From a virus: a DNA stretch of 64,000 nucleotides. Position numbers and translations under genes: made by a program. Of this stretch, positions 18,316-62,960 are shown in pieces. Below the pieces are notes generated by a model. It saw only the letters and a list, made by a program, of their open reading frames with translations, had not been told where the DNA came from and searched no databases. The number at the start of each line of letters is the position of its first letter. Position 1 is the stretch's first letter. The stretch spans positions 58,351-122,350 of IMG/VR virus record IMGVR_UViG_3300027816_000069. The stretch is one strand, 5' to 3'.

Positions 18316-18336
18316 GTGACCAAGGAGACTCTATTT

Positions 18337-21795: not shown

Positions 21796-21798
21796 TAT

Positions 21799-22312: not shown

Positions 22313-22315
22313 TAA

Positions 22316-22673
22316 GGGGGTATAACGGTATCGATTGGATAATAGCAATTATGTTAGCAAGTAGTGGTTGATCGACCGGCCACTTTAAAAAGTCGATTAA
22401 ACGCTTTAACTAGCGAAACTCAGTTAGCCCTTGCTGCCTAATAAATAAGTAGCAACAATCTTAGAAAGCGATGAAGGTAGCGTTCAAAAGATTGATGTAA
22501 AATCCTTCGGCTGCTAGAATAGCCAACGGGTTCTAGCCTGAGATTAGTTGGTACGGAAAGATGAATGTTGTTTGTTCTTTAGTCTTTCTTAAAATTTATG
22601 AATAAACTAAACTTGTAGAATATATAATGAAAATTATCGCAACACATGGGTTCGACTCCCATTACCTCCACTA
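22316..22673 (+). ncRNA. ssrA: transfer-messenger RNA (tmRNA)
   Basis: tmRNA frees stalled ribosomes and tags the unfinished protein for degradation. The tRNA-like half is complete: acceptor 7 bp (GGGGGTA at 22316-22322 with TACCTCC at 22663-22669), discriminator A, and T-arm ATGGG-TTCGACT-CCCAT. The 3' end is encoded ACTA rather than ACCA, so CCA must be added by enzyme. TAACGG follows the acceptor as in other tmRNAs. The mRNA-like part after GATTAAAC reads from a GCT resume codon (22403) ALTSETQLALAA and two stops; the ALAA end is typical of degradation tags. Confidence 0.93.
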
Positions 22674-25680: not shown

Positions 25681-25694
25681 GGTGTTATTATATT
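25681..25694 (+). promoter_or_regulatory. putative late-promoter motif before DUF1501 gene
   Basis: TTTTGGTGTTATTATATTA about 20-35 nt before the GTG start. The same YGGTGTWWT core precedes the protease pair and three structural operons. No TTGACA site is present. TATAAATA at 25665-25672 is also present but common by chance here. Confidence 0.4.
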
Positions 25695-25715
25695 AATGGC
25701 AACGGAGTTTATAAT

Positions 25716-27062
25716 GTGAAAATATCCAGAAGATCACTTATTCAAAGTGGCCTATTAGGCTACTCATCATTATCTGCAACTGAGGTTATAGCAGAATCTA
25801 AAACTGATAATTCAGTCATACTGGTTTGGTTGCCGGGCGGGCTTTCTCAATTAGAAAGTTATGATCCTAAATCACAAGCCAAAAGCGATGTAAAGGGATT
25901 ATTTAATAGTATTCCTACTAATGTGGTTGGAACTCATATTAGTGAACTATTTCCTTTACAGGCACAAATAGCAGATAAATTTACTCTTATACGATCTATG
26001 ACCCACAGATTCACCGATCATGGTGGAGGGTCCAAAAGAGTAATGACAGGAAAAGAACCCAAAGTTCCTACAGGTACTATTAACGATACTCCATCTATAG
26101 CATCAGTAGTTTCAAAACATAACCATAATAATGGTTGTATTATTCCATCTAATATTTTATTAGCGGATGGTGGCACTAATTCTGTTGATGAATTTGCACT
26201 AGGGTCTGCATTTTTGGGATCGTCATATGATGCCTTTATTGTTGATGGCGACCCTTCTGCTAAAAATTTTAAAGTAAACAATATTACTATGTCAGATAGT
26301 CTTAAAGGCAGAATTGATGATAGATTACAATTGCTATCTCAAATAGATAAAATAGATAGACAATTAGATTATTCGCAATCTATGAGTGCTATGGATAATT
26401 TTCATAAAAAGGCTTATGATTTATTAACTTCTCATGAAGTTAAAGGAATTTTTGATGTAGTCTCTGAGCCGTTATCTGTTAGAGAGAGTTATGGATTAAA
26501 TGCTTGGGGTCAAAGATGTCTTATGGCAAGAAAACTAGCAGAAGCAGGCAGTAATTTCGTAACTGTAACATTAAGAAATCCGCCAGGATCACCACCAGAT
26601 CATTCGTATTATAATTGGGATTGTCATGCTGTTAATTGCGATATATTTATAGATATGAAATATAAAGCAAATTTTTATGATCAGGCTGTTAGTGGATTAA
26701 TTAATGATATCTATAATAGAGGATTAGATAAAAATATTTTAGTTGTAGTAATGGGAGAATTTGGACATACTCCTAAATTAGAATATAAAGAAGCAAGAGG
26801 TAAAATAAGAAATGGTAGAGATCATTGGTCTAAAGCATTTTCTATATTAGTATCTGGTGGTGGATTAAAAATGGGTCAGGTTATTGGCAAAACAGATGAC
26901 AATGCTGCATTTGTAATTGATCGTCCTGTGACTCCAGAGGACTTGTGGGCCACGATTTATAGGCACTTGGGTATTGATGCGTCTAAAGTTATTTATGACC
27001 TCAGTGGTCGGCCAATTCCTATTTTAGCAGATGGCAGACCCATAAAAGAACTGGTGATTTAA
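25716..27062 (+). CDS. Tat-exported DUF1501 protein
   Basis: 448 residues. N-terminal twin-arginine signal (SRRSLIQSGLLGY) and the DUF1501 fold, a sulfatase/alkaline-phosphatase-superfamily relative: WLPGGLSQLESYDPK (about 35-49), RSMTHRFTDHGGGSKRVMTG, NAWGQRCLMARKLAEAG, NWDCHAVNC, VVVMGEFGHTPK and GRDHWSKAFSI. GTG start behind CGGAG; an overlapping ATG is followed at once by a stop. DUF1501 proteins are extremely common in Planctomycetota; enzyme activity is unknown. Unusual cargo for a phage, likely host-derived. Confidence 0.85.
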   Translation: MKISRRSLIQSGLLGYSSLSATEVIAESKTDNSVILVWLPGGLSQLESYDPKSQAKSDVKGLFNSIPTNVVGTHISELFPLQAQIADKFTLIRSMTHRFTDHGGGSKRVMTGKEPKVPTGTINDTPSIASVVSKHNHNNGCIIPSNILLADGGTNSVDEFALGSAFLGSSYDAFIVDGDPSAKNFKVNNITMSDSLKGRIDDRLQLLSQIDKIDRQLDYSQSMSAMDNFHKKAYDLLTSHEVKGIFDVVSEPLSVRESYGLNAWGQRCLMARKLAEAGSNFVTVTLRNPPGSPPDHSYYNWDCHAVNCDIFIDMKYKANFYDQAVSGLINDIYNRGLDKNILVVVMGEFGHTPKLEYKEARGKIRNGRDHWSKAFSILVSGGGLKMGQVIGKTDDNAAFVIDRPVTPEDLWATIYRHLGIDASKVIYDLSGRPIPILADGRPIKELVI

Positions 27063-27245
27063 ATGAATATGATACAATATCTGGCTCATGAATTAAATAA
27101 TAAGGTGTTTCATCTACAAAAACTGCTCAAAGAAACAGAACTTGCTCTGGATGAATCAAAAAAAGAAAATATGAAACTATTATCTCTTTTAGAAGCACGG
27201 AAAATTTCTCCCAATACGGAAACTGAAACAGCAGACTGTTGCTGA
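27063..27245 (+). CDS. hypothetical coiled-coil protein
   Basis: 60 residues; heptad-like helix (HELNNKVFHLQKLLKETELA) and a short C-terminal tail ending DCC. Begins immediately after the DUF1501 stop, so probably co-translated. Not recognised. Confidence 0.6.
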   Translation: MNMIQYLAHELNNKVFHLQKLLKETELALDESKKENMKLLSLLEARKISPNTETETADCC

Positions 27246-27271
27246 AAAATAAAAAATCTCAAGTTGTGCTA

Positions 27272-27299
27272 TTGACAAGCCGATACTGTGAGATAGAAT
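27272..27299 (+). promoter_or_regulatory. sigma70-like early promoter
   Basis: TTGACA, 16 nt, TAGAAT, with AGCCGATAC in the spacer. Followed by an unusually long leader of about 70 nt. Confidence 0.78.
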
Positions 27300-27375
27300 G
27301 AGTTAGTCGCTGTGAGAGATTTGATCATGCGATCAACTCACAAAAGACAAATTTGGATATGTTTGGAGGTTGATT

Positions 27376-27654
27376 ATGGCTGAAGTTAATGTGCTTGAGA
27401 AGCAGAAGAGGATTCGTTGCTCTGACGAGGCTTTTCTTGAGGCGGTTTTTAGCAGTAAGACTTATGCTGAAGTTTCTGCTAAGACTGGGCAGAAGATTGC
27501 CACTACTATGGCTAGGTATGCCCGTGCTAAGGCGGCATTAAAGGCCAAGGGTGAGGATCTTCCTAAGATGGAAAGAGCAAAGCCTGTTAAGAGTGTGGAT
27601 AATATTGAGGCTATGGCGGATTTTGTCCGTCGCCTCAAGGCTCACAAGGCTTGA
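27376..27654 (+). CDS. putative small HTH DNA-binding protein
   Basis: 92 residues, strongly basic and Ala-rich. CSDEAFLEAVFSSKTYAEVS followed by AKTGQKIATTMARYARAKAAL looks like a helix-turn-helix (about 16-50). Codon use differs sharply from neighbours, with nearly all Lys as AAG. GGAGGT before the ATG; an in-frame TTG two codons earlier is disregarded. Single-gene unit between its own promoter and terminator, as expected for a highly expressed early regulator. Confidence 0.65.
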   Translation: MAEVNVLEKQKRIRCSDEAFLEAVFSSKTYAEVSAKTGQKIATTMARYARAKAALKAKGEDLPKMERAKPVKSVDNIEAMADFVRRLKAHKA

Positions 27655-27664
27655 ACATAAATAG

Positions 27665-27745
27665 CAGCCAACTACAATCGTCCAGAGATAAAGGAACAGC
27701 ATTTAATCAACCTCTTATCAACGGATATTGTAGTTGGTTGTTTTT
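27665..27745 (+). terminator. putative terminator with long loop
   Basis: CAGCCAACTACAAT pairs with ATTGTAGTTGGTTG (14 bp, one wobble) across a 48-nt loop and is followed by TTTTT. It closes the preceding single-gene unit. The large loop is unusual and may itself fold. Confidence 0.6.
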
Positions 27746-27775
27746 ATATCTTGTATTACTAAAAAGGAATAACTT

Positions 27776-27997
27776 ATGAAAAAGACAGAAAGTTTTTTTG
27801 AATTAAACGCCATAGGAACTAAGGTACGTTTAGAAGATGATGTGTTTGGTACTATAGTTGGGATACATATCTCTCAGAATAATGCTATAGCCTATGAAAT
27901 TGGATGGTGGAATGGACGATCTTACTCTAAGGATGCTTTCCTTCCTCATCAATTAGTTATAACTAGTGACGAAAAAATTCGTATAGGTTTTGCATGA
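27776..27997 (+). CDS. conserved small phage protein
   Basis: 73 residues. GTKVRLEDDVFGTIVGIHIS and YEIGWWNGRSYSKDAFLP form a small SH3/KOW-like barrel found in uncharacterised phage proteins. AAAGGAATAACTT precedes the ATG. Confidence 0.72.
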   Translation: MKKTESFFELNAIGTKVRLEDDVFGTIVGIHISQNNAIAYEIGWWNGRSYSKDAFLPHQLVITSDEKIRIGFA

Positions 27998-28296
27998 ATA
28001 AGAACGCTAATCCTTTGGATTATGTGCTTAAATGTTCTGAGCAAGGACTTGTGCCGTATGACTTTGATATATTAAACGCTAAAGACGAACTGAAAAAACT
28101 TCGGGATTGTCAAAAAGAACTATCTGAACTAAAACAAATTATGTCTAATACTGTAGCATGGGGTTTGGTGAATGATCGTAAAGATATTTATGATCTAAGA
28201 ACTCAACCTAATCCTTATTATGATCAAACTAAAGTAGTTTCATTATGTTGCGATCAAAACTCATTTAATAAGATTAACAATGGTAACATATCCTAA
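27994..28296 (+). CDS. conserved phage protein
   Basis: 100 residues; central helix (KDELKKLRDCQKELSELK) then VAWGLVNDRKDIYDLRTQPN, a motif recurrent in phage proteins of unknown function. ATGA overlap upstream. Confidence 0.68.
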   Translation: MNKNANPLDYVLKCSEQGLVPYDFDILNAKDELKKLRDCQKELSELKQIMSNTVAWGLVNDRKDIYDLRTQPNPYYDQTKVVSLCCDQNSFNKINNGNIS

Positions 28297-28630
28297 TAGA
28301 TTCTTTTATGGTTTTTCTGTGAATGATGGCAATCATAATTCACATTTTATTCACTATATTATAGAAACCGTACATGATATATCTGATTATAATGGAGATA
28401 CTATAATTGAAAGAGTATCTCGTATGGAAGATTATTATCTGAATACCGACAGAATAGATGAACCATATTATATTGTATATGGATCACTAAAACCAGAATT
28501 TAATGAATCTTCCAAATTTATAGCCTCTTTTGAAAATCTTAGTCAGGCTATCTGTTTGGTCGAACATTTAACTGGTAACAAAATAGTTGAATCTGATTTA
28601 CCTATTTATAGACAAAAGCATGAAAACTAA
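28280..28630 (+). CDS. hypothetical protein
   Basis: 116 residues, alpha/beta, acidic. Overlaps both neighbours (17 and 11 nt). Not recognised. Confidence 0.62.
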   Translation: MVTYPNRFFYGFSVNDGNHNSHFIHYIIETVHDISDYNGDTIIERVSRMEDYYLNTDRIDEPYYIVYGSLKPEFNESSKFIASFENLSQAICLVEHLTGNKIVESDLPIYRQKHEN

Positions 28631-29111
28631 ATATATAGTAGAAATACTTAGAAGCGAAGGTGCGAGCGCCCAATTTTATTCTATTAAAGGCTCAAAAACT
28701 TTAGGCTTTAAAGAATTCTGTTCAAAAAAGACCGCACTCTATGCTTATAAGGTTCAGAAAAAATTATCTAAACTAGGTTTAGCCCCTAAAGTTTATGTTA
28801 AAATTAAACGAGTTCCCATTCATAATCATAATGAGTCTACTAATTGGGGATTCGTTACTCAAAAGGCAAGAATTCTAGGGCATAAATATTCTAGAGAAAA
28901 AATACAAACTCTTGTTGATAAAATATTCGACAAAACAAATTTAAAGTTTTGGGACTGCCATTCTTGGAATATTGGCAGATTAAATAACAAGTATGTTTGC
29001 ATAGATACTGGTAGGGAAAGTTTTGATAGCAATTGTAACGCTTGGGGAAATGTTGACCCAGGTCCAAAATGTGACTATTGTTTAAAATATAAATGTAAAT
29101 GCGAGGAATAA
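28620..29111 (+). CDS. small protein-kinase-like protein
   Basis: 163 residues. The C-terminal half reads WDCHSWNIGRLNNKYVCIDTG: Asp112, His114, Asn117 and Asp129 resemble the catalytic loop and metal-binding Asp of aminoglycoside/RIO-type kinases (D-x-H-x-x-N...D-x-G). The N-lobe is reduced, and there is no glycine loop. A Cys cluster (CDYCLKYKCKC) follows. Start at 28620 avoids a 44-nt overlap. A kinase remnant or minimal kinase; activity uncertain. Confidence 0.5.
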   Translation: MKTKYIVEILRSEGASAQFYSIKGSKTLGFKEFCSKKTALYAYKVQKKLSKLGLAPKVYVKIKRVPIHNHNESTNWGFVTQKARILGHKYSREKIQTLVDKIFDKTNLKFWDCHSWNIGRLNNKYVCIDTGRESFDSNCNAWGNVDPGPKCDYCLKYKCKCEE

Positions 29112-29114
29112 TAT

Positions 29115-29426
29115 ATGCCTTATGTAGATGAAGATGATAGAGAAGAATTAGATTTTTGTATTGACCAATTAACTAATTGTTTACGCGTTATGAAACACCC
29201 CCTGAATAATCCTCATGATTTTAGCATATATCTAGGTAGAATAAACTATTGTTTTTCTAGAATAATTAGCGGGTTGATGGGTAATCCATCTTATGCTAAG
29301 ATAGCAATGATTACTGGTGTATTAGAGAATATTAAACAAGAATTTTATCGTCGCGTAGCATCACCATATGAAGATAAAAAGATTTTGGAATATGGAGATA
29401 TAAAAGAATATAAAAAACTTAGTTAG
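29115..29426 (+). CDS. DUF6899-like phage protein
   Basis: 103 residues. DEDDREELDFCIDQLTNCL, NYCFSRII, ITGVLENIKQEFYRRVASPY and YEDKKI.EYGDI match a family of small uncharacterised phage proteins (DUF6899-like by memory). All-helical. Confidence 0.72.
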   Translation: MPYVDEDDREELDFCIDQLTNCLRVMKHPLNNPHDFSIYLGRINYCFSRIISGLMGNPSYAKIAMITGVLENIKQEFYRRVASPYEDKKILEYGDIKEYKKLS

Positions 29427-29435
29427 GAGATTATT

Positions 29436-29786
29436 ATGTCTAGAGATTATGATGATATTATTAAAGAGATAACTAAAAGTAATAAAGAAATTCATAATAT
29501 GGATAAGAGTTTTTCTAAAGATATAGACTCTCTTCAAAAGAATATTAAGACGATAGAGACTAAGTTAGCCAAAATAGATGCTACTCTTGAAAAAGTATAC
29601 GATCTTTTAACTGCTATAACTGTTTTTATAGAAGAAGCAGAAGAAGATGAAGAGGTTGACGAAGATTCAGAAGATTGGACCCCTTATGATGAAAGAAATT
29701 TTTCATATGAGGACGATGAAGAAGAAAATACAGATAGTGATTATGGTCTAGAAAATGATTGGGAAGATCATAATGATGATAACTAA
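29436..29786 (+). CDS. coiled-coil protein with acidic tail
   Basis: 116 residues. Heptad-rich helix (about 15-70: KDIDSLQKNIKTIETKLAK...) followed by about 45 residues of almost pure Asp/Glu. AGGAGA precedes the ATG. Acid tails of this kind can mimic DNA or bind basic partners; no evidence of which. Confidence 0.65.
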   Translation: MSRDYDDIIKEITKSNKEIHNMDKSFSKDIDSLQKNIKTIETKLAKIDATLEKVYDLLTAITVFIEEAEEDEEVDEDSEDWTPYDERNFSYEDDEEENTDSDYGLENDWEDHNDDN

Positions 29787-30037
29787 TGGCTAGTTTAGCG
29801 TTAATAGTGGCATTTATATTTTTAGGAATGATATTCTGTGGCCCATTAGTGCTGCTGTTAAATAGAGTAAATATATTACCTAGAATAATTATTCAATTAT
29901 TATCTACTGTTTGTATAGTTTATGGATTTTGGTGGATAATCACTCTTGTTACCCCTATTCGCTGGCTAGGATTATTGCCCATATATTGTGGGTGGTTAGC
30001 CATAAAAACTAAAGAGAGGACACTTGACAGTCGATAG
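29786..30037 (+). CDS. multi-pass membrane protein
   Basis: 83 residues, three predicted membrane helices with short basic loops. Its 3' end overlaps the -35 of the rIIA promoter. Not recognised. Confidence 0.65.
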   Translation: MASLALIVAFIFLGMIFCGPLVLLLNRVNILPRIIIQLLSTVCIVYGFWWIITLVTPIRWLGLLPIYCGWLAIKTKERTLDSR

Positions 30038-30051
30038 CAGTATGGTACGAT
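30024..30051 (+). promoter_or_regulatory. sigma70-like early promoter for rIIA
   Basis: TTGACA, 16 nt, TACGAT with TGG before the -10 and GTCGATAG in the spacer. Leader ends TTGGAGACAAAC, nearly the same leader as at 1400. Confidence 0.8.
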
Positions 30052-30094
30052 AGGAGCATCACAGGAACCTTGGTTAAACACTTGGAGACAAACG

Positions 30095-32761
30095 ATGAAG
30101 TTGGCAGACAGGACAGTTGAGACTCATAGCACTGGCATTAAGAGTGAGTCTGGTTTCACTATTGCACAAACCAGCAAAATGTTTAAAATCTTGTCAGACT
30201 CGCTGTATTCTGATAAGGTTATGGCCGTTATTCGTGAACTATCAACCAATGCTTATGATAGTCATATCGCTTCTGGCAATAAGAATCCATTCAAGGTGAT
30301 TCTGCCGAATGCTGCTAATCCTAACTTTGTAGTGCGTGATTATGGTACTGGTCTTAGTCAGGCCGATATGGAGAACCTGTATACAACATACGGGGCTAGT
30401 AACAAGAATACTAGTAACGATTTTGTTGGTTGTCTTGGTCTTGGTAGTAAGAGTCCTTTTGCTTATACCAAGAGTTTTACCACCAGTTCTTATTTTAACG
30501 GCCAAAAATATACTTATGTAGCCGCTATTGATGACTCTGGAGTGCCAACGCTGAATCTGTTTAATATCTCAGAAACAGATGAGCCTAATGGTCTAGAGAT
30601 TAGTTTTGCTGTAAAGCAATATGACTTTGCTGAATTTAGCAGTAAGTCTATGCGTATTTTTCACTATTTTAAGATGAAGCCAATTATTGAGGGTGGCGTA
30701 CTCAATAATCTAAAAGATCACAAGTACAGTAATCGTAGTATTGTTTTGAGTGGTGATGGATGGAGAGTTTGTCGTCTAAATAACGATGCTAATTATTATC
30801 CCAATGTTCATCATCATATTGATAGTGGTATTGTGGCACTTATGGGTAATATTGCATACCCTGTTAAGGCTAGTCAGATTATTGGTGAGGATAAGCAGAC
30901 CACTAATGATGCTATTCAGCGTTGGAATCGTGCTTTTCAAAAGGCCGATATCGACAGTTGGAAAAGTTTTGTTAATGAAATTATCAATCAGAACCTTTAT
31001 CTGGAACTTGACTTTAGTATTGGCGAATTGGAAATGGATGTTTCCAGAGAAGGCTTACAGTATACTAAAGACGTAATTAAGACCTTGCGTGAAAAGACTC
31101 AAGAGATTTATCTTGAGATGAAGGAAGAATTTAGCAAGAAAATTTCTGCCGCTAAAACTAAGGTAGAAGCAATTACACTATATTATACCCTTAATGATCT
31201 TGCTGGAGGATGGGGTGTTGGTGCTGAGTGGACCGATAGTAATGGTAAGAAGCATAATATTAATTCTGGAACAGATCTAGAATATAAGATTGCTGCCGGA
31301 AAGAGTATGTACGTTTTTAACTATCGTACTGCTGGCTATCGTTCTCGCCGCATGGTTTATCAGACAAATAGTATTCATCACAATACTCTTACTGGTAAGG
31401 GAGAATACTATTGGAATAGCCAGAAAAAGACAGGCGAACTATCCTTCTTTGTTTGCGACATTAAAACAGAAGAAACAGCAAAGAAGATTGTTACTAGATA
31501 TTGCAACGAGAAGAATTGCTTTGCATATCTAATGATTGATACCAAAGATCATACTAAAGTTGGTGAAGGTTTTGATGATCTTATTACTGATGTTGGTTCT
31601 CATAATATCAAGAAGGTTTCAGATTACAAAGACCTTATTAAGAATAATGGTCCTCGTAAGTCTAGCAATAGAGGTTCTACTGGCGTTATTAGTGATCAAG
31701 ATGTATTCTTTATTTATGGTCAATCTAAGAATAGTGGAACAATTTCTTCTGTTTATAACGATGCGACATATCTGCGTACTCTCACAGAATCTGAACTAGA
31801 AGATTTTGAAGATAGTACGGATATTGTTTATGTGCCCATTACGCGATATAGTAGCGATAGTGGCTATCCATCATTAATGGGCTTAAACAAGATTATCTCT
31901 GATAGTTCTTTGTCTACTATGGTCAAAGAATTGTTTGGATCAGTCAAAATATATGCTATTAAGAGTAACTTTGTTAAGAAGTTGCAGAACAGTGGATATA
32001 ATATGATTGATTTTAATAAGTTTTTCAAGACTCAACTAAAGAAATTGGCAAGCGGCACATTTGGTCAAATGGCCGAATACAATAGTCTGGTTCAGTTTTG
32101 CAAAAACGAAGATGCTAAGATGAGCAAAGACAGTGGATATGGATATGGGTCTATGGAGAAACAGTTTGTGTTCCATATGCTAAATATTTTTGGTCTAGAT
32201 TATAGTAAGCATCTAAATAACAAAGATTTGACCGATGCTATAGATCATTGTCTGGTCATAGAGTTTTTTGCTGATACTGTTCATCGTTCTAATTTTGATA
32301 TTGCTCGATTTACTCAGAAAGAGTATTTTGATCATATTACCAAACTACTAAATAAGATCGGTATCACCAGTATTGATAGTAAAAAGATCAAAGATAGTAA
32401 TATTGCATACAATACTCTGAGTCGTGCAATTGAACACACTATGTACAATTCGCTAGATCATGATGTTGTTTCTGAATGTCTGGAAATTATTAAGCCAGAT
32501 ATGACCAAGAAGCATACTCTGCCAAAGATTAGTGATATTAAAAATCTAATCAAGATCGGGCTTGACAACAACCCGATACTGAAGTATATTGTTGGTAGTC
32601 ACAGCGTTAGTGGTAATCTTAGGGATTTGCAATTGTCTAACGATCCTGTTTCTCAACTGCAAGAACGAAATTACTATTATAGAAATAGCAACAAGCCTTG
32701 GCTGGCAACTCTAAGTGATGTGGATTCTCTTAGAAAGCAAATTGGTAGTTTGGTTAAGTAA
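30095..32761 (+). CDS. rIIA: rIIA-like protein with GHKL ATPase domain
   Basis: 888 residues. The N-terminus has the GHKL (Hsp90/gyrase/MutL) ATP-binding fold: VIRELSTNAYDSH (44-56, Mg-coordinating Asn), VVRDYGTGLS, and GLGSKSPFAYT. This layout is that of T4 rIIA and its homologues in large phages, which with rIIB block exclusion by prophage systems and affect lysis timing. The C-terminal 500 residues are family-specific and unassigned. The 3' end contains a promoter for rIIB. Confidence 0.87.
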   Translation: MKLADRTVETHSTGIKSESGFTIAQTSKMFKILSDSLYSDKVMAVIRELSTNAYDSHIASGNKNPFKVILPNAANPNFVVRDYGTGLSQADMENLYTTYGASNKNTSNDFVGCLGLGSKSPFAYTKSFTTSSYFNGQKYTYVAAIDDSGVPTLNLFNISETDEPNGLEISFAVKQYDFAEFSSKSMRIFHYFKMKPIIEGGVLNNLKDHKYSNRSIVLSGDGWRVCRLNNDANYYPNVHHHIDSGIVALMGNIAYPVKASQIIGEDKQTTNDAIQRWNRAFQKADIDSWKSFVNEIINQNLYLELDFSIGELEMDVSREGLQYTKDVIKTLREKTQEIYLEMKEEFSKKISAAKTKVEAITLYYTLNDLAGGWGVGAEWTDSNGKKHNINSGTDLEYKIAAGKSMYVFNYRTAGYRSRRMVYQTNSIHHNTLTGKGEYYWNSQKKTGELSFFVCDIKTEETAKKIVTRYCNEKNCFAYLMIDTKDHTKVGEGFDDLITDVGSHNIKKVSDYKDLIKNNGPRKSSNRGSTGVISDQDVFFIYGQSKNSGTISSVYNDATYLRTLTESELEDFEDSTDIVYVPITRYSSDSGYPSLMGLNKIISDSSLSTMVKELFGSVKIYAIKSNFVKKLQNSGYNMIDFNKFFKTQLKKLASGTFGQMAEYNSLVQFCKNEDAKMSKDSGYGYGSMEKQFVFHMLNIFGLDYSKHLNNKDLTDAIDHCLVIEFFADTVHRSNFDIARFTQKEYFDHITKLLNKIGITSIDSKKIKDSNIAYNTLSRAIEHTMYNSLDHDVVSECLEIIKPDMTKKHTLPKISDIKNLIKIGLDNNPILKYIVGSHSVSGNLRDLQLSNDPVSQLQERNYYYRNSNKPWLATLSDVDSLRKQIGSLVK
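32562..32590 (+). promoter_or_regulatory. internal promoter for rIIB inside rIIA
   Basis: TTGACA, 17 nt, TATATT, with CCCGATACT in the spacer as at other early promoters, about 195 nt before the rIIB ATG. T4 also has an rIIB promoter within the end of rIIA, so the arrangement makes sense. Confidence 0.6.
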
Positions 32762-32786
32762 TCACAGGAAACTAAGGAGATTTATA

Positions 32787-33659
32787 ATGAGTGTTCCATT
32801 TATGTTTGTTGACGGTAATTTGACTCTTGTTCTTAACAATAAGAGTTATCAGGTGTTGCCAGATCATCTAAACTATAAGATGATTCTGGAAGTTCTACCT
32901 ACTGCTAGTGCAGATGAACTGCTAGAGATGGTGGATATTCAAAAGGCCGTGACAGTTTATAGTCAGGGTCTTGTGGAGATCAAGGAAGGTCGTGTTCTTT
33001 ATGATAACGAAGAAGTACATGGTAGTATCAGTAAGCGTATTCTTGAGTTTATGAGCAAGGGTCTGCCATTTCAGCCTCTTGTTAATTTCTTGAATAACTT
33101 GATGGATAATCCTAGTATGCAGAGTCAGCAGGAACTATATGATTTCCTAGAGCATGAGCATCTGCCAATTACTGAAGATGGTCATTTTCTAGCATATAAG
33201 GCTGTTCGGTCAGATTATATGGACAAGTATGCTGGCAAGTTTCGTAACAAGGTTGGCGATATTTGTAAGATGACTCGTTCAAAGGTTGATGATAATCGTA
33301 GTGTGGGATGTTCTCAGGGACTTCATGCTGGGGCATTGAATTATGTTGCGTCTTATGGTAATGTAGATGCTGGTGATAAGATCGTGATTGTTAAGATCAA
33401 TCCTAAAGATGTAGTGAGTGTTCCTAGTGATTGTAATCATGAGAAACTTCGCACCTGCCAATATGAAGTTGTTGGAGAGTATCAGGGCGAATTGCTCAAG
33501 CCTCTTTACTCTGCTAATTTTAATGAAGATGATTATAATGATGATGAAGACGAGTATGATAATGACTATGATTGGGGATGGAATGACGATGAAGAAGATA
33601 TAGATGATGATTTTTATGCTGAACAAGAGGATGAAGAGGACTACGACGATCAATATTGA
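32787..33659 (+). CDS. rIIB: rIIB-like protein
   Basis: 290 residues. LPFQPLVNFLNNLMDNPS, ELYDFLEHEHLPITEDGHFLAYKAV, GCSQGLHAGALNYV and IVIVKINPKDVVSVPSDC match T4 rIIB homologues. The last 50 residues are a long Asp/Glu/Tyr tail not typical of short rIIB proteins. AAGGAG before the ATG. Partner of rIIA in protection against exclusion systems. Confidence 0.87.
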   Translation: MSVPFMFVDGNLTLVLNNKSYQVLPDHLNYKMILEVLPTASADELLEMVDIQKAVTVYSQGLVEIKEGRVLYDNEEVHGSISKRILEFMSKGLPFQPLVNFLNNLMDNPSMQSQQELYDFLEHEHLPITEDGHFLAYKAVRSDYMDKYAGKFRNKVGDICKMTRSKVDDNRSVGCSQGLHAGALNYVASYGNVDAGDKIVIVKINPKDVVSVPSDCNHEKLRTCQYEVVGEYQGELLKPLYSANFNEDDYNDDEDEYDNDYDWGWNDDEEDIDDDFYAEQEDEEDYDDQY

Positions 33660-33670
33660 TCGTTGGAGGA

Positions 33671-33725
33671 AGATGGTCCGCTGGGCGGATACTAGTTAAA
33701 GAGCGGTTCGATTCCGTTACCATCT
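33671..33725 (+). ncRNA. 55-nt truncated tRNA-like element
   Basis: AGATGGT (33671-33677) pairs perfectly with ACCATCT (33719-33725) as a 7-bp acceptor, directly stacked on a standard T-arm (AGCGG-TTCGATT-CCGTT). Only 24 nt remain between, enough for one arm. They can fold as a D-arm-like CCGC/GCGG, or as a 5-bp arm with a 7-nt loop GCGGATA. A normal tRNA needs about 20 nt more. Either a decayed tRNA or a tRNA mimic. TTTT follows. Confidence 0.55.
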
Positions 33726-33743
33726 TTTAAGGACTTATATACA

Positions 33744-34178
33744 ATGCACGAAGATTATGATGATCATGACTATGATGATGAGGACTACTATGATTATGAT
33801 GATAATGACCAGTATGATCCTTACAAGTTTTATTTCAAGTTTGATGTGGGTGCAGACTCACCAATATCAGATATGATTAATAAATGGTTTAATCTTAGTC
33901 AAGACTCTTTCAATGGATTACACTGGTATAGTTTTCCAACAAATATTGATGGTTGGCCTGTAATTAAGTTTCCTGTGAGTAGTTGGAATCCCAATACTGG
34001 CAAGGATAATTCCTTCCAGTATTTGGGGTCCAATTATCAAGGATCACCCATATGGAAAAAAAAGTATTTCGTATATAATCCTCTAAATATAGAGTATAAA
34101 TTACATTTACAGCAACACGCTACACATTTTATACAACAACCGACATATTACAAAGGAATGTTTGATATACTCAACTAA
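33744..34178 (+). CDS. hypothetical protein with acidic head
   Basis: 144 residues. The first 25 are Asp/Tyr/His (HEDYDDHDYDDEDYYDYDDN), very like the C-terminal tail of rIIB just upstream, suggesting local duplication of a low-complexity segment. The rest is an aromatic-rich beta domain of unknown function. Confidence 0.65.
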   Translation: MHEDYDDHDYDDEDYYDYDDNDQYDPYKFYFKFDVGADSPISDMINKWFNLSQDSFNGLHWYSFPTNIDGWPVIKFPVSSWNPNTGKDNSFQYLGSNYQGSPIWKKKYFVYNPLNIEYKLHLQQHATHFIQQPTYYKGMFDILN

Positions 34179-34187
34179 GGAAAAATT

Positions 34188-34607
34188 ATGAGCGAATGGT
34201 TTGTAGTTAAAGACAAAGATCATTTAATAGAATCAACCAGAATATTAGTATTTAATAGTTTTGGTAATACAGAATCTAATGTTAAACTAAGTATTAATTC
34301 ACAAGACCAAGAAGAATTAGATACTATATTATCTTTCAATGAAACTGAAAATATTATGATGCCACATTTGCGTAAGCAAAGAAATAAACGCACCAACGCA
34401 GAAAGATATCTATTAGAAGATAAGCAATATCAAGAAATCATTCAATTACTTGGATCTCGTATGGTTAGTAATATTCTACATGGTCTAGTAAAGAAGGGAC
34501 TAGTAGAATCAGCATTTGATACTGAATGTAATGATTTTATTTTTTGGGTGCCAGACTTGGAAAAGGGCTTAGAGTCAAATGAAGAAAACAAACCAGAAAC
34601 CGATTGA
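34188..34607 (+). CDS. conserved phage protein, related to 21799
   Basis: 139 residues. AERYLLEDKQYQEIIQLLGS and NILHGLVKKGLVESAFDTE then NDFIFW resemble the C-terminal half of the product at 21799. The helical, winged-helix-like pattern may bind DNA or protein; unproven. Confidence 0.65.
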   Translation: MSEWFVVKDKDHLIESTRILVFNSFGNTESNVKLSINSQDQEELDTILSFNETENIMMPHLRKQRNKRTNAERYLLEDKQYQEIIQLLGSRMVSNILHGLVKKGLVESAFDTECNDFIFWVPDLEKGLESNEENKPETD

Positions 34608-34977
34608 ACACGATGTACACCTAAAATATTTGTGTAAGAAGTGTGGTCAAATTCATTGGCTATCTCTTAAAGAGTCGTCTACCAAACACTTTAAAATTGT
34701 TTGTGACTGTGGTAATATTTTTGGAGTAAAGCGAACATCCAGAATCAAGATTCTGTATTCTAAAGTTTCCAAAACTTCTACAACCACTAAATCACCACCT
34801 ACTTCAACTCCACAACCTATTCCCGACTCTTTATTGTCACAAGGAATTGGTGTGTTGTTGCCCTATGGCTTTACAAAAAAAGAAGCCAGTGAACTGTTAG
34901 AGAAAACGTATATGCTGCATCCTACACAGGATATAGCGTCTTTGGTTAAAGAATCATTATCTTCATTAAGGAACTAA
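34579..34977 (+). CDS. zinc-ribbon protein with RuvA domain-III-like tail
   Basis: 132 residues. N-terminal zinc ribbon (YLCKKCGQIHWL...IVCDCGNIFG), a Thr/Ser/Pro linker (about 70-90), then GVLLPYGFTKKEASELLEKT and LVKESLSSL, a three-helix pattern like RuvA domain III, the part of RuvA that grips RuvB. It stops 2 nt before the RuvB-type gene. Inferred role: recruits or activates the helicase at DNA junctions. No RuvA OB or tetramer domain is present. Confidence 0.5.
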   Translation: MKKTNQKPIEHDVHLKYLCKKCGQIHWLSLKESSTKHFKIVCDCGNIFGVKRTSRIKILYSKVSKTSTTTKSPPTSTPQPIPDSLLSQGIGVLLPYGFTKKEASELLEKTYMLHPTQDIASLVKESLSSLRN

Positions 34978-34979
34978 TT

Positions 34980-35885
34980 ATGGCAAACTATCTTAGACCA
35001 TCATCTTTTGACGAAGTAATCGGCCAAGGCGATACTATCAACCGTCTAAAAATCATGGTGAGAGGCTGTTTAAAATCTGGAGGGGTGCTACCTCATGTTT
35101 TAATTGACGGGCCTCCTGGCCTTGGTAAAACGACAATAGCGGGTGCTATAGCGAACGAGTTGGGGGTCAACTTGTATACGCTCAATGCGGCCAATATCCG
35201 TAGCATCAAGAACATCCTTCCGTATTTAATGAGCATATCTCCACGATCAGTATTGTTTATTGATGAGATTCATAGACTGCCTAAGATTGTAGAAGAATTT
35301 CTATATCCAATCATGGAGGATTTTGTTCTTAGTATTACTGTGAAAGATGATAATGATAAAGAACAACCAACAACTATTGATCTTCCGGCCTTTACATTGG
35401 TAGGAGCAACAACTAGCGGTGGCAGTTTGAGCCAGCCTTTCTATGATCGTTTTATCATTAAAGAACATCTATCTTTTTATAACCTGAGTGAGTTAGCCAA
35501 ACTAGCAGGATTGACAGCAAACAAACTCGGACTAATGATAGACGACTATAGTCTTGAGCAAATTGCTATGAGGAGTAAAGGTACTCCTAGAATTTTGCAA
35601 AGTAGGTTGCACTGGTATAGGAATTATATCATGTGTGAAAAAGATACTAAGAATGATATTGATGCTATTTTTCAACTACAGGGTATAGATAGTCAGGGAT
35701 TAGATGTATATGATAGATTGTACCTAGATATTTTGCGTAAGGCTAAAGGAAATCCTTTAGGATTGAAAACCATATCTTCTATGACAGGAATAGCCATAGA
35801 GACTATTGAAAATAGTATTGAGCCTTATCTTGTAAGAGCTGGATTTATTCAGCGCACACCAAAAGGAAGAATTATAGTAAAATAG
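34980..35885 (+). CDS. ruvB: RuvB-type Holliday-junction helicase
   Basis: 301 residues. RuvB drives branch migration of Holliday junctions. Starts with YLRPSSFDEVIGQ, Walker A GPPGLGKTT (44-52), Walker B LFIDEIHRL (92-100), sensor GATTSGG, the PFYDRF region equivalent to the arginine-finger strand, and the winged-helix end GLKTISSMTG...IEPYLVRAGFIQRTPKGR, which is diagnostic for RuvB over other clamp-loader ATPases. Slightly shorter than the bacterial 330-350. RuvB in a phage is uncommon; endonuclease VII at 22.7 kb could be the resolving nuclease. Confidence 0.92.
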   Translation: MANYLRPSSFDEVIGQGDTINRLKIMVRGCLKSGGVLPHVLIDGPPGLGKTTIAGAIANELGVNLYTLNAANIRSIKNILPYLMSISPRSVLFIDEIHRLPKIVEEFLYPIMEDFVLSITVKDDNDKEQPTTIDLPAFTLVGATTSGGSLSQPFYDRFIIKEHLSFYNLSELAKLAGLTANKLGLMIDDYSLEQIAMRSKGTPRILQSRLHWYRNYIMCEKDTKNDIDAIFQLQGIDSQGLDVYDRLYLDILRKAKGNPLGLKTISSMTGIAIETIENSIEPYLVRAGFIQRTPKGRIIVK

Positions 35886-35936
35886 AGACTATATAATAGT
35901 ATTAATAATTCAAAGAATAGCTAAATATAACATATC

Positions 35937-35950
35937 GGTGTATTATATTA
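35937..35950 (+). promoter_or_regulatory. putative late-promoter motif before the proteases
   Basis: CGGTGTATTATATTA in the 86-nt gap after ruvB, resembling the site before the DUF1501 gene (GGTGTTATTATATTA). No TTGACA box in this gap. Confidence 0.42.
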
Positions 35951-35986
35951 TGCGATTTTTGTTTCACGATAATGGAGTATTCCACC

Positions 35987-36724
35987 ATGAAACGCATAAT
36001 ATTACTATGGTTATTTTTGATATGCTCAATTTCTTATGGTGGTACTGGTAGTCCCGACACGCCAGATGATAAATATGTAGATTATGGCAAAAAATTTACA
36101 TCAGTAGTAAGAATTTGTGGTTCATATAAAAATAATCCACAAGAACAATACTGTGGATCAGCGGTGATTATTAGTCCTCACTATATTGTGACTGCTGCTC
36201 ATGTTGTCAGGGGTTCTAGGTCTTGTCATATAGTATTAAATAATAAAAACTATGAAATTACTCAAGTTGTCGCCCACCAAGACTTTGAAAAAGATACTTT
36301 AGATAGTGCTGATATTGCAGTAGGGTATAGTAAGGAACCTATGAACCTAGACTCTTATCCTGAACTTTATACTGAACAAGACGAAAAAAATAAGTCATGT
36401 GCATTATCTGGATTTGGTTTTGCTGGTAATTTTAATAGTGGTGCAACATTTAGTGACGGTGAAAGAAGAGCTGGTACTAATGTAATAGATTATGTAAATA
36501 AGGGGCTATTATTTTGCTCTCCATCAAAACCCCAAGAAAAAAACACAACTAGATTAGAATTTCTAATTGCTAGTGGAGATAGTGGTGGTGGTCTTTTTAT
36601 AGGTAATAAATTAGCTGGTATTCATTCATTTATTTTTGCAGATAAAAACCTAAGTCAGATTATCTTACTGAATCAGCACACACTAGAATTAGTAAGTATG
36701 CGGATTGGATTAAGGAAAACATGA
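35987..36724 (+). CDS. secreted trypsin-like serine protease
   Basis: 245 residues. Signal peptide (MKRIILLWLFLICSISYGG), then a chymotrypsin-fold domain with the full triad: His72 (VTAAHVV), Asp109 (DSADIAV) and Ser199 (SGDSGGG). Cysteines at CGS...C suggest disulphides, so it acts outside the cytoplasm. Start at 35987 chosen because GGAG precedes it; an ATG 15 nt earlier would overlap that site. Forms a unit with the next protease. Possible jobs: host envelope opening, removal of competitors or virion processing. Confidence 0.85.
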   Translation: MKRIILLWLFLICSISYGGTGSPDTPDDKYVDYGKKFTSVVRICGSYKNNPQEQYCGSAVIISPHYIVTAAHVVRGSRSCHIVLNNKNYEITQVVAHQDFEKDTLDSADIAVGYSKEPMNLDSYPELYTEQDEKNKSCALSGFGFAGNFNSGATFSDGERRAGTNVIDYVNKGLLFCSPSKPQEKNTTRLEFLIASGDSGGGLFIGNKLAGIHSFIFADKNLSQIILLNQHTLELVSMRIGLRKT

Positions 36725-36725
36725 A

Positions 36726-37667
36726 ATGAAACGCAATGATTATTCTCTATTACCATATACTAGACAAGATATATATGGATTATCTCCAAAAGTTAGTCAA
36801 ATTTTAGGGTGGGAAATTATTCAGTTTGATATTGTTGAGCAATGGAAGTATTGTAGTGGTGATGATGTTATTGTGGCGGTGATAGATACTGGTTGTGATT
36901 TAGATCATCCAGATTTATCTAAAAATTTATTACAAGGAATTAATCTTATAGACTCTAAAAAAGACCCAATAGACGATAATGGTCATGGCACTCATGTGTG
37001 TGGCACTATAGGAGCATCTCATAATAGTATAGGCATGGTTGGTGTAGCGCCAAATACCAAAATTTTACCTATAAAAGCATTAGATGGTGCTGGATCTGGT
37101 AGTAATAAAGATATTGCAAGAGGTATAGTTTATGCTGCTGATAGGGGATCGAATTTGATTGCTATGTCTTTAGGTTCTCCAAATTTTTCTCAAGCTCTGT
37201 ATGATGCAATAATTTATGCTACTAAGAAAAATAGTATTATTTTTTGTGCTGCTGGTAATGCTGGAGAAAATACTCCAATCATGTATCCAGCAAAACATAA
37301 AGAGACCATAGCAATAGGCTCTATTGATCGTAACCTGAATAGATCAACATTTACTTGTAAGGGTGAAGAATTAGATTTTTTATGTCCAGGACAAGATATA
37401 TTTAGTTGTGTACCAAATAATACATATGCTATTATGAGTGGAACTAGCATGGCTAATCCATTCGCTGTTGGTTGTGCCTCATTAGTATTGTCTTTTTATA
37501 AATCACAAAAGCAAGAACATAAACTTTCTTCTAAAGAAGACTATATTAATTTATTCAAACAAATGAGTAAGAGTCTGAAAAATAGCAAATATGCGGGAAA
37601 GAAAGAGTATGAAGGATATGGTATAATATACCCAAGTATAGGTAATATTACTGCCCCACCTGCATAA
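36726..37667 (+). CDS. subtilisin-like serine protease (S8)
   Basis: 313 residues. Complete subtilase core: VIDTGCD (Asp54), DNGHGTH (His87), oxyanion Asn178 (AAGNAG) and GTSMANP (Ser241). No signal peptide or inhibitory propeptide, so it is intracellular or virion-packaged, unlike the protease just upstream, and would be active once folded. One base separates the two genes. Subtilases are rare in phage genomes; target unknown. Confidence 0.87.
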   Translation: MKRNDYSLLPYTRQDIYGLSPKVSQILGWEIIQFDIVEQWKYCSGDDVIVAVIDTGCDLDHPDLSKNLLQGINLIDSKKDPIDDNGHGTHVCGTIGASHNSIGMVGVAPNTKILPIKALDGAGSGSNKDIARGIVYAADRGSNLIAMSLGSPNFSQALYDAIIYATKKNSIIFCAAGNAGENTPIMYPAKHKETIAIGSIDRNLNRSTFTCKGEELDFLCPGQDIFSCVPNNTYAIMSGTSMANPFAVGCASLVLSFYKSQKQEHKLSSKEDYINLFKQMSKSLKNSKYAGKKEYEGYGIIYPSIGNITAPPA

Positions 37668-37759: not shown

Positions 37760-37960
37760 ATGAAACAAACAATGAACTACGACGATAACAATAAACCTAA
37801 CAAAAGAAAAAGAAATCCAGCAAAAAAGAGCACTAAGCACTTTTTTGATGATGATCAATTTCTCAAACAAAAAATCAATAAGGACTTTAAGCAAAGGAAA
37901 AAATCCATCGTAGAAGACGATGATGATTGGAAAAATTGGAATAATGAACAATACGAATAA
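37760..37960 (+). CDS. hypothetical small basic/acidic protein
   Basis: About 66 residues with a Lys/Arg block (KPNKRKRNPAKKSTK) and an acidic end (VEDDDDWKNWNNE). Starts at 37751, 37760 or 37772 are all possible and none has a clear ribosome-binding site. Not recognised. Confidence 0.5.
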   Translation: MKQTMNYDDNNKPNKRKRNPAKKSTKHFFDDDQFLKQKINKDFKQRKKSIVEDDDDWKNWNNEQYE

Positions 37961-38696
37961 TATTCATTATGTATTTGGTTTACGTCCAGATTTTGGTGGC
38001 AAACCTTGGTCTTATTGTCATTATTTATCAGTAAAATCTGCTGCTACTATCAATTCAGGCAGTAATATCTATTTCTGGCATGAACATGAGCCAGAAGGAG
38101 AATGGTGGGATAAAAGTAAACAATACCTCATACTAAAACCAATAAAAGCTCCCACATCTATATTTGATAGACCACTATTACACCATGCACATAAGGCGGA
38201 TGTAATTAGGCTATTAGCATTAAAAGAATTTGGTGGAACCTATATTGATAGCGATGTGATTTGTCTCAAGCCATTTGATACAATACAACATTGTGGCTTT
38301 TGGGGAGGCAAGCAGTATGACTATGGATTATGTAATGCGACTATGGGAGGATGTAGTGGGGCCTTATTTATTGATTTATGGTTAGACACATTCAAAACTT
38401 TCAGAAGCCAAGGTTGGGACCAATACTGGGATGAACACGCAGTCAAGATTCCGAGACAACTATCACAAATATATCCTAATTTAGTAACAGTTTTAGATCA
38501 AGAACTTTTTTTCTGGCCCTTTTGTCATCAAATAAAAGATATCTTTGAGAGTGATAAACCCAAATATCTACAAAGATCATATTCAGTACATTTATGGGAA
38601 ACAATATCTTGGAACTGGCTGAGTCAATTAACTCCAGATACTATAAATCGAAATAGTGAATTAGGAATTATTCTACAAGAAAATAATATTATATGA
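37944..38696 (+). CDS. GT32-type glycosyltransferase
   Basis: 250 residues. HHAHKADVIRLLALKEFGG followed by TYIDSDV (Asp102, Asp104, the metal-binding DxD) is the GT-A core of the GT32/Och1-like group, which moves sugars from nucleotide donors. No signal or membrane segment, so cytoplasmic. First enzyme of the glycan module. The start could be an ATG 24 nt earlier. Confidence 0.82.
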   Translation: MNNTNNIHYVFGLRPDFGGKPWSYCHYLSVKSAATINSGSNIYFWHEHEPEGEWWDKSKQYLILKPIKAPTSIFDRPLLHHAHKADVIRLLALKEFGGTYIDSDVICLKPFDTIQHCGFWGGKQYDYGLCNATMGGCSGALFIDLWLDTFKTFRSQGWDQYWDEHAVKIPRQLSQIYPNLVTVLDQELFFWPFCHQIKDIFESDKPKYLQRSYSVHLWETISWNWLSQLTPDTINRNSELGIILQENNII

Positions 38697-48643: not shown

Positions 48644-48658
48644 GGTGTAATCAAATTA
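48644..48658 (+). promoter_or_regulatory. putative late-promoter motif
   Basis: TTGGTGTAATCAAATTA immediately after the GT4 stop and 15-30 nt before the first structural-type gene; same core as the other late sites. Confidence 0.42.
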
Positions 48659-49743: not shown

Positions 49744-50400
49744 ATGATAGATATTGTATCTGTTGGTAATCAAAAATTATCTTATAAAGACCATGCTGAT
49801 ATTCAATTTGAGTCTTTACCATTCTATTTAGAATTAGCACAAAAAGCCATATCTAAATTTGGTAAGAACTTTTCTGCAAATATTAGCAAGGAAATGTTGA
49901 GAAGTGAGGACGCTATAGCGTCGGTAGCAAACTGTATAATGATGGCAGATTGGAGATGGGATAAAGATCGGAAGGGAGATTCTGGTTTACAAAAAACTAA
50001 ATATTCTTATAGAAATCAGTGCGCTATTTGGGCAATCAAAAGCTATATCAGCCGTAAGAAGAATAAAAAGAGTAAAAGAGGTATCGAGATCAATGGCTGC
50101 TATGATAGCGAACAAGATTACTCATTATTAGATATCTTATGTATTGAAAATGAATGTCCAGTTGAAACACTACAAAATAAAGAAGAAGATCAAAATCTTA
50201 AAAATTATTTTAAGCAAATATTAGATCCTAACAATAAATTGCTCTCAGAAAGACAGTCTCAATATATCAAAATGTATTATTTTGAGAATAAGACATTTGC
50301 TGAAATCGGCAAAAGGTTTTCTGTAACCAGAGAGGCCGTAAGACAAGGTATCAAAAAGGCAATTATAAAAATTAAGGAGGTTAGCGAAGCACATGCCTAA
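49744..50400 (+). CDS. phage RNA polymerase sigma factor
   Basis: 218 residues. Region 2-like helices (about 55-110, with ADWRWDKD and QCAIWAIKSYISRKKNKK) and a clear region-4 helix-turn-helix: LSERQSQYIKMYYFENKTFA then EIGKRFSVTREAVRQGIKKA (168-206). No region 1.1 or 3, as in small late sigma factors such as T4 gp55. Located among structural genes, so a late-transcription sigma is likely. Upstream gap has TATAAATA at 49706 but no YGGTGT motif. Confidence 0.82.
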   Translation: MIDIVSVGNQKLSYKDHADIQFESLPFYLELAQKAISKFGKNFSANISKEMLRSEDAIASVANCIMMADWRWDKDRKGDSGLQKTKYSYRNQCAIWAIKSYISRKKNKKSKRGIEINGCYDSEQDYSLLDILCIENECPVETLQNKEEDQNLKNYFKQILDPNNKLLSERQSQYIKMYYFENKTFAEIGKRFSVTREAVRQGIKKAIIKIKEVSEAHA

Positions 50401-51118: not shown

Positions 51119-51536
51119 TCCTACTATAGTTTGGGAAAAATGGGTTGATCCATACGGAAATAATCCAGAAGATATAGAGTGGCCAGGATATGATTCTGAT
51201 CATATTATTGATGATCATGATGAAGAATCTGAACACAAGCCTAAAGTTAGCAAAATTAATGCTATAGTCACTTCGATGGGTATTATTCCATTTAATGAAC
51301 ATACAGATTGTAGTAAAATTTTTAATTTTTGGGTAGGACACACCAATTTTAGTATTACTCAATATATTGCTCATATTTTGCAGTCTATAGAGGGGGTTGA
51401 GACTTTGGATATATTTACTAGATATAGATTTAGAATAGCATTTGGTAAGGCGTTTGATGATAGACAAGTGATGGATACTATAAATAGTAAAATCAAAACA
51501 TTATTTATCACAAATGCCAATGAATCCGAATTTTGA
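51108..51536 (+). CDS. hypothetical protein
   Basis: 142 residues. Acidic first half (DDHDEESEHKPK) and an alpha/beta second half (FNFWVGHTNFSI, YRFRIAFGKAFDD). Overlaps both neighbours. Not recognised. Confidence 0.65.
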   Translation: MQNNPTIVWEKWVDPYGNNPEDIEWPGYDSDHIIDDHDEESEHKPKVSKINAIVTSMGIIPFNEHTDCSKIFNFWVGHTNFSITQYIAHILQSIEGVETLDIFTRYRFRIAFGKAFDDRQVMDTINSKIKTLFITNANESEF

Positions 51537-52191
51537 ACAAAAATTATCCAATATCCATCATTATGGTATTGATCCAGAAAATAGAGAAATATTTCTCCAT
51601 TCACACATGATGGATTGCGAGGATGAAAATGGCGTAGATTATAGATGTGCTGTGACTTTTGAAAAAAATTTACGCTACCTTAATACCATATCATTTGATC
51701 CTATTATTATACATATGCATATGCCGGGCGGCGATTGGTCGGATTGTTTGGGTATATATGACGCTATGCAACACTCACAATCTCCCATTGCCTGCGTAGC
51801 ATATGCTAAAGCAGAATCTGCTAGTGGTGTTATTTTCCAAGCGGCCGATCTGAGAATATTAATGCCTAATGCATATATGCTTATTCATTATGGGTCTTTA
51901 TCACTAGATGGTGAACACAAAGCGGCCCTTAGTAATCTAAAATGGAACGAACAAGAAGCATCAAAAATGATAGAAATTTTTACAGAGAAATGCTGCTTGT
52001 CTCCAATGGCTAAAGAAAAAATGTGGAAAAAATCAATGATAAAAAAACATATAACCTCCCAACTGTCTAATAAATCAGATTGGATACTTACAGCTAACGA
52101 ATCGGTGTATTATGGTTTTGCTGATGGTATATTTGGCACATCACCATATCAATCCATAGAACACATCAAGAAAAAATTAGCGAAAAAATAA
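51514..52191 (+). CDS. ClpP-type serine protease (S14), possible prohead protease
   Basis: 225 residues. IIIHMHMPGGDWSDCLGIYD (66-84), AKAESASGVIFQAAD with Ser102 aligned to the nucleophile, and MPNAYMLIHYGS with His125, form the ClpP fold. ATG 51514 or 51520 possible. In phages such enzymes mature capsid or scaffold proteins, which fits the location; they can also be stand-alone proteases. Confidence 0.8.
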   Translation: MPMNPNFEQKLSNIHHYGIDPENREIFLHSHMMDCEDENGVDYRCAVTFEKNLRYLNTISFDPIIIHMHMPGGDWSDCLGIYDAMQHSQSPIACVAYAKAESASGVIFQAADLRILMPNAYMLIHYGSLSLDGEHKAALSNLKWNEQEASKMIEIFTEKCCLSPMAKEKMWKKSMIKKHITSQLSNKSDWILTANESVYYGFADGIFGTSPYQSIEHIKKKLAKK

Positions 52192-52866: not shown

Positions 52867-52880
52867 GGTGTATAGAACTT
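52867..52880 (+). promoter_or_regulatory. putative late-promoter motif
   Basis: TTATTTGGTGTATAGA in a 90-nt gap before the structural gene at 52920, preceded by AATAAATATAC. Same YGGTGT core as the other four sites. Confidence 0.42.
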
Positions 52881-62946: not shown

Positions 62947-62960
62947 GGTGTAATACTAGT
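62947..62960 (+). promoter_or_regulatory. putative late-promoter motif
   Basis: TTTTGGTGTAATACTAG in the gap before the gene at 62988; closest match to the consensus of the five sites. Confidence 0.42.

Follow-up and report, generated by a model that had tools for sequence, protein, structure and literature searches.

Planctomycete-type DUF1501 cargo and a core S1/S8 protease cassette in a lineage of uncultured tailed phages

Why should a tailed phage encode an exported DUF1501 protein and two serine proteases? The question is raised by the IMG/VR virus record IMGVR_UViG_3300027816_000069 (122,350 bases), of which we analyzed the final 64 kb (positions 58,351 to 122,350; 64,000 nucleotides, hereafter the window). 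The record belongs to a tailed phage: genes for the large terminase, the tape measure, and the major head protein are found on the minus strand within its first 36 kb, and tail fibers with an Mtd-type domain are located in the window. An initial annotation made from the sequence alone had placed the three genes of interest in the window, and all are present at those positions:

25716..27062, + strand: DUF1501 gene, GTG start, 448 amino acids (aa), twin-arginine signal; PF07394, 267 bits
35987..36724, + strand (annotated start 35972 also possible): S1 (trypsin-like) protease; PF00089
36726..37667, + strand: S8 subtilase of the intracellular-subtilisin type, without signal peptide; PF00082

A stretch of about 9 kb that includes rIIA, rIIB, and a RuvB-like gene separates the DUF1501 gene from the protease pair, and the two are distinct things, namely, accessory cargo and a core phage cassette. 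The phages that carry them form a widespread, uncultured lineage of large tailed phages with relatives in lakes and in the ocean, whose hosts are most likely Planctomycetota; no close cultured relative of the lineage was found in our analysis.

The DUF1501 protein matches PF07394 with 267.3 bits (cutoff, 27) over positions 2 to 390 of the 390-position model. Its N terminus (MKISRRSLIQ...) keeps R5-R6, consistent with the Tat signal that had been predicted, and an “RR” near the N terminus occurs in nearly all cellular relatives. The 80 best cellular matches are planctomycetes, apart from a few labeled “bacterium” and one labeled Actinomycetota. The best cellular segments are 37 to 43% identical to the window protein, in a genome scan that used two short peptide patterns and was therefore biased toward close DUF1501 types, and DUF1501 proteins from Gammaproteobacteria and Bacteroidota plasmids are only about 26% identical. 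Each of six planctomycete genomes contains at least 93 DUF1501 matches. DUF1501 is absent from isolated phages (0 in 50,697 records), and a weak match alone has been reported, in a 61-aa phage open reading frame (ORF) (PMC5418858).

DUF1501 is carried by 11 of the 97 distinct related phage records, two of which have three copies. In a tree with outgroups, the viral sequences occupy three or four separate positions; a single ancestral viral clade was rejected (approximately unbiased test, p 1e-60). One viral group joins planctomycete copies including Singulisphaera (support, 98/93), and the group of the window nests among other planctomycetes (97/93). The initial annotation had suggested that all three genes derive from a planctomycete host. 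For DUF1501, the best matches, the low identity elsewhere, and the phylogeny against planctomycete homologs support a planctomycete origin, but this does not extend to the proteases (see below). The tree positions suggest that the gene was captured at least three times by this phage lineage. Infection of Planctomycetota would most simply account for the recurrent uptake of genes that are hallmarks of this phylum, so its members are probably the hosts of the phage clade, Verrucomicrobiota being another possibility.

Within the phage genome, DUF1501 is a single-gene insertion with its own upstream motif. Its site is empty in the relatives G011 and G012, in which the flanking ORFs are direct neighbors, the homolog of a 60-aa ORF directly following that of a 94-aa ORF:

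27063..27245, + strand: 60-aa ORF, downstream edge of the DUF1501 insertion (G011/G012 comparison)

Contamination or misbinning was ruled out: several contigs have DUF1501 surrounded by phage genes, and relatives lack it at exactly this site. Two sites recur, one in the UvdE-ligase-glycosylase-rIIA region (the window, G330/G331, G346/G347, G350, and G369; near UvdE in G335) and one between RuvB and the protease pair (G307; near RuvB in G346/G347). In its single-gene insertion, its own upstream motif, and its exchange at common sites, DUF1501 resembles phage auxiliary genes, or morons; it differs from them in representing a planctomycete hallmark family captured three or more times.

Four marine relatives (G336, G338, G330, and G331) share one DUF1501 type, with G336 and G338 being near-identical at this gene. 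A PSCyt1-PSCyt2-PSD1 gene overlaps DUF1501 in G336, G330, and G331 (domains checked in G336 and G331; the G338 contig ends there), a ferredoxin accompanies DUF1501 in marine relatives, and a DUF1559 gene is also present in G330/G331 (checked in G331). The marine locus L295 carries DUF1559 (pseudopilin-like) and PSCyt1-PSCyt2-PSD1 genes (L295 1874-2860 and 7452-9953), both of planctomycete hallmark families. The L006 virus (L006 7983-10721) has DUF1501 followed by HXXSHH/DUF1552, downstream of tail-fiber genes; small membrane proteins adjoin, and S1-like and papain-like ORFs were recognized nearby by eye, with no Pfam match. Among the viral contigs, HXXSHH/DUF1552 occurs only in the L005/L006 virus; it was not found in the virus of the window by a search whose controls gave no match either.

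A PSCyt/PSD1 (DUF1549/DUF1553) neighbor, as seen in cellular DUF1501 examples, is absent beside the window DUF1501; it is the usual context of the family and does not define it. Cellular PSCyt genes are often near sulfatases, and some bear carbohydrate-binding modules (PMC5615132). Thus, the window copy is like planctomycete DUF1501 proteins in its full-length match, twin-arginine start, and invariant residues but differs in lacking this partner, and the viral copies are phage encoded and at most about 44% identical to cellular ones.

Viral and cellular DUF1501 members share six invariant residues (H97, H102, D302, H304, E348, and H370). In an AF2 (AlphaFold2) model built from 49 sequences (pLDDT, 86; pTM, 0.87), the top 50 Foldseek hits in the PDB all belong to the alkaline phosphatase superfamily (prob, 1.00), among them sulfatases, LtaS/LtaP, and Escherichia coli alkaline phosphatase PhoA (E, 2e-7 to 2e-5). 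DUF1501 differs from these proteins in that the TM-scores are only 0.31 to 0.43 and the identities about 10%, and a sequence profile search gave only a marginal sulfatase match (E, 1.8). By its predicted fold, DUF1501 would be a hydrolase of the alkaline phosphatase/sulfatase superfamily, with the invariant residues as candidate metal ligands or nucleophile. Because the fold is that of phosphatases and sulfatases, action on protein is unlikely. We found no assay of the DUF1501 family in the literature, and the papers found assign no function to DUF1501 or its PSCyt/PSD1 partners.

The S1/S8 pair belongs to the core of the phage clade. The gene order rIIA-rIIB-x-RuvB-S1-S8 is identical in G011, G012, and G013, whose proteases are 48 to 52% (S1) and 57 to 67% (S8) identical to those of the window, and a profile search with the S1 family recovered at least 80 viral contigs, the longest of 204 kb. 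Both proteases had been regarded as unusual phage cargo and as possibly host derived. Instead, they are old core genes of this uncultured clade, and subtilases are present in 92 isolated-phage records. Bacillus and Lactococcus phages (Bacillus phage SP-15, for example) have subtilases of the same family as the window S8 (at most 40% identity over 84% of the protein), whereas its S1 partner has no relative among isolated phages.

The S1 protein (PF00089, 1.2e-13) begins at 35987 in preference to 35972 because the S1 proteins of relatives begin there. A hydrophobic, signal-peptide-like N terminus is found in 57 of 59 distinct viral S1 proteins, followed in most by a conserved, GTIDP-like mature start, consistent with the signal peptide proposed earlier, which would be of the Sec type. 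The S8 protein (PF00082, 2.6e-50) has no signal peptide, as had been noted. Both catalytic triads, described as intact, are present and invariant across the aligned relatives (H72, D109, and S199 in S1; D54, H87, and S241 in S8), but the S1 protein as a whole is not fully intact, its frame departing from that of all relatives at a run of five A residues:

36644..36648, + strand: five-A run, site of the S1 frame departure

The frameshift replaces the last 30 or so residues, which no longer match those of relatives, and is common to three further contigs of the same virus; a fixed mutation and tolerated slippage are both possible. The triad lies upstream of the run and is unaffected, although activity may be lowered.

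The nearest PDB relatives of the S8 protein are intracellular subtilisins (1e-65 to 1e-63), and 21 of 23 distinct family members have no hydrophobic N terminus. Near its own N terminus, the protein has a counterpart of the LIPY/F inhibitory motif of intracellular subtilisins, [LVI]-[IFLV]-P-[YFH] (PMC6220982):

36747..36758, + strand: LLPY codons (S8 residues 8 to 11), matching the LIPY/F inhibitory propeptide motif

By a strict test within the first 30 residues, the motif is present in 19 of the 23 members; in the other 4 it is visible by eye, further in or as LFPY. Because it lacks a signal peptide and has intracellular-subtilisin relatives and a LIPY/F-type motif, the S8 protein is most likely a self-inhibited cytoplasmic zymogen. 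It thus resembles the intracellular subtilisins of Bacillus and Planococcus but differs in being a phage gene coupled to an exported S1 protease behind a late-type motif. The S8 start lies within −23 to +6 nucleotides (nt) of the S1 stop in 26 of 30 same-strand neighboring pairs (1 nt past it in the window), which suggests that the two genes are translationally coupled.

The phage also encodes a dedicated head protease, which makes capsid processing an unlikely job for the S1/S8 pair:

51514..52191, + strand: head maturation protease, ClpP-like (phrog_94, 3e-17)

The initial annotation had further proposed that the DUF1501 gene and the protease pair share a late-type upstream motif. In the full record, GTGTAT and GGTGTA are the two most enriched 6-mers about 20 to 65 nt upstream of genes (9 versus 1.0 and 7 versus 0.8 expected, respectively). 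The resulting promoter-like motif, GGTGTA followed by an A/T-rich stretch, is common to the S1/S8 pair and structural genes. Its enrichment is visible only with position-aware and cross-genome tests; a plain consensus search of the window gave no excess (23 found versus 23.0 expected). Copies that precede structural genes are at record positions 26646 (−), 21385 (−), 18579 (−), and 36280 (−) and at window positions 48644, 52867, and 62947, with matrix scores in this record of 13.0 to 20.0; G009 also has the site that precedes the 175-aa head-region gene. The matrix was built without the S1 site. Sites in the window that bear on transcription, and a putative sigma factor, are as follows:

35937..35950, + strand: late-type motif GGTGTATTATATTA before the protease pair; matrix score 13.6
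25681..25695, + strand: weak motif variant GGTGTTATTATATTA, GGTGTT type, 35 nt before the DUF1501 start; score 8.8
48644..48657, + strand: late-type motif upstream of 48674-49183; orthologous site in G011 at 22167
52867..52880, + strand: late-type motif, 53 nt before 52920-53522
62947..62960, + strand: late-type motif, 41 nt before the ORF at 62988
27272..27299, + strand: sigma-70-like TTGACA-N16-TAGAAT before the gene at 27370; kept in G011/G012
49744..50400, + strand: sigma-factor-like protein (phrog_351 RNA polymerase sigma factor, 6e-10); 74% identical in G011

The orthologous S1 sites of G011 and G012 score 15.5 and 14.0. The DUF1501 site is retained as GGTGTTTTTATATTA, with a different spacer, in an 86%-identical relative (G008), and G336 has a strong motif copy 33 nt ahead of its PSCyt1-PSCyt2-PSD1 and DUF1501 pair. 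In contrast to these late-type sites, the gene after the DUF1501 insertion (27370) has an ordinary sigma-70-like site. Of 59 distinct relatives, 36 have GGTGTA upstream of S1 (versus 2.5 in shuffles and 0 antisense); because the motif often appears inside the C-terminal codons of the preceding gene, this conservation is partly confounded and was set aside as main evidence. Thus, the shared motif is real genome-wide and fits the S1 site well, but the DUF1501 site is a weak variant. Likewise, the view that these are late products appears sound for the protease pair, by way of the motif common to structural genes, and is plausible, though weaker, for DUF1501. The sigma-factor-like protein is a candidate reader of the motif.

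How might these parts work together? Our explanation builds on the gene content, fold, origin, recurrence, cargo sites, shared motif, and zymogen motif described above. Late in infection, a phage-specific promoter would switch on the coupled S1/S8 pair. The S1 protease would cross the cytoplasmic membrane via Sec, and the subtilase zymogen would be restrained by its LLPY propeptide until processed; acting outside and inside, respectively, the two enzymes would break down host protein on either side of the membrane and so aid release. Some members of the lineage would also make the accessory DUF1501 protein, exported by Tat, which would most likely remove sulfate or phosphate groups carried by surface glycans or by similar polymers of the envelope, in order either to clear surface material before release or to keep host glycan processing running. 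A purely “proteinaceous envelope” as the target, as initially suggested, is unnecessary for this mechanism; planctomycetes do have peptidoglycan.

Several points weigh against this explanation. The motif before DUF1501 is a weak one (8.8), and several of the other viral DUF1501 genes lack it immediately upstream. The S1 protein of the window is frameshifted in its C-terminal part. Verrucomicrobiota, outside the sampling of the DUF1501 tree, also carry such genes (PMC5615132), and the major head protein, searched against 294 planctomycete genomes, gave no match, a result that is uninformative on the host. The host, timing, catalytic activity, substrates, and role in release are the conjectural parts of the scheme. 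As a whole (planctomycete phage, late protease pair, exported accessory DUF1501, and release), we consider it evenly balanced between right and wrong. Its most far-reaching form, in which phages repeatedly take PSCyt/PSD1/DUF1501 parts, drive them from their own late promoter, and dismantle the planctomycete envelope from both sides with an alkaline phosphatase superfamily enzyme, an exported protease, and an autoinhibited intracellular subtilisin, is doubtful.

The main rival holds that DUF1501 is an auxiliary metabolic gene, supporting the carbohydrate, sulfur, or phosphorus acquisition of a host with PSCyt/DUF1501 systems, with no role in release or surface clearing. The pairing of a cytochrome-type PSCyt1-PSCyt2-PSD1 gene and a ferredoxin with DUF1501 in marine relatives fits this view, as do the sulfatases and carbohydrate-binding modules associated with cellular PSCyt genes (PMC5615132) and the alkaline phosphatase superfamily fold. 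However, the viruses of the window and of L006 have DUF1501 without a cytochrome partner, a late-type motif lies upstream of DUF1501 in the window, and the L006 gene is located downstream of tail-fiber genes, among small membrane proteins; we regard this rival as a serious possibility but lean against it. It is unlikely that DUF1501 is instead an exported superinfection-exclusion or receptor-destroying factor that alters a phage-bound surface polymer. The predicted Tat export and alkaline phosphatase/sulfatase fold would suit such a factor, and DUF1501 is accessory and swapped between viruses, as many exclusion genes are. However, DUF1501 type shows no link to tail-fiber type, and a late-type motif is at odds with the early production that is usual for exclusion factors.

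For the proteases, the alternative is that they mature virion proteins or are packaged in virions, in line with the presence of their promoter motif at structural genes as well. We consider this quite improbable. Capsid maturation by the pair is disfavored by the separate head protease at 51514-52191 and by the exported appearance of S1: given its signal-peptide-like N terminus, seen in 57 of 59 members, S1 should miss cytoplasmic precursors. The pair also lies outside the structural cluster.

Other genes of these phages were recorded as well. A Volactin-family actin homolog (window 39779-40783; PF25216, 3.9e-63), a conserved phage actin whose Pfam family name points to archaea, is encoded close to the protease pair at 54 of the 80 related viral loci. 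At least 80 viral contigs, drawn from many samples, have a major head protein (L009 1452-2462; record 21452-22462) with 86 to 100% identity, while these phages diverge widely in their other genes; the protein is either unusually slow in its evolution or recently spread. The window also encodes IMPDH/GMP-reductase-like, UvdE endonuclease, ThyX, RtcB, and RNA ligase proteins (46438-47571, 18304-19248, 16788-17414, 5920-7287, and 8734-9759, respectively). A nucleotide-sugar epimerase and several glycosyltransferases (L009 9394-10395 and 12402-13664; window 37920-38696, 40919-41779, and 47568-48641) suggest that the phage also edits surface sugars.

Each part of these systems comes from a known family. 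New are the viral members, which were captured several times independently and inserted at common sites; a PSCyt/PSD1/DUF1501 set carried by phages; and an exported protease coupled to a zymogen behind a late-type motif that structural genes also have. Searches of an open-access library turned up no account of these in phages. The results point to a host for a widespread phage lineage, for which they also offer a candidate late promoter and a candidate sigma factor, and the coupling of an exported protease with an intracellular-subtilisin zymogen suggests a release strategy. Repeated selection as phage cargo marks DUF1501, PSCyt, and PSD1 as important to the host surface or metabolism, and their viral copies offer small, testable versions of families that are present in very high copy numbers in planctomycetes.

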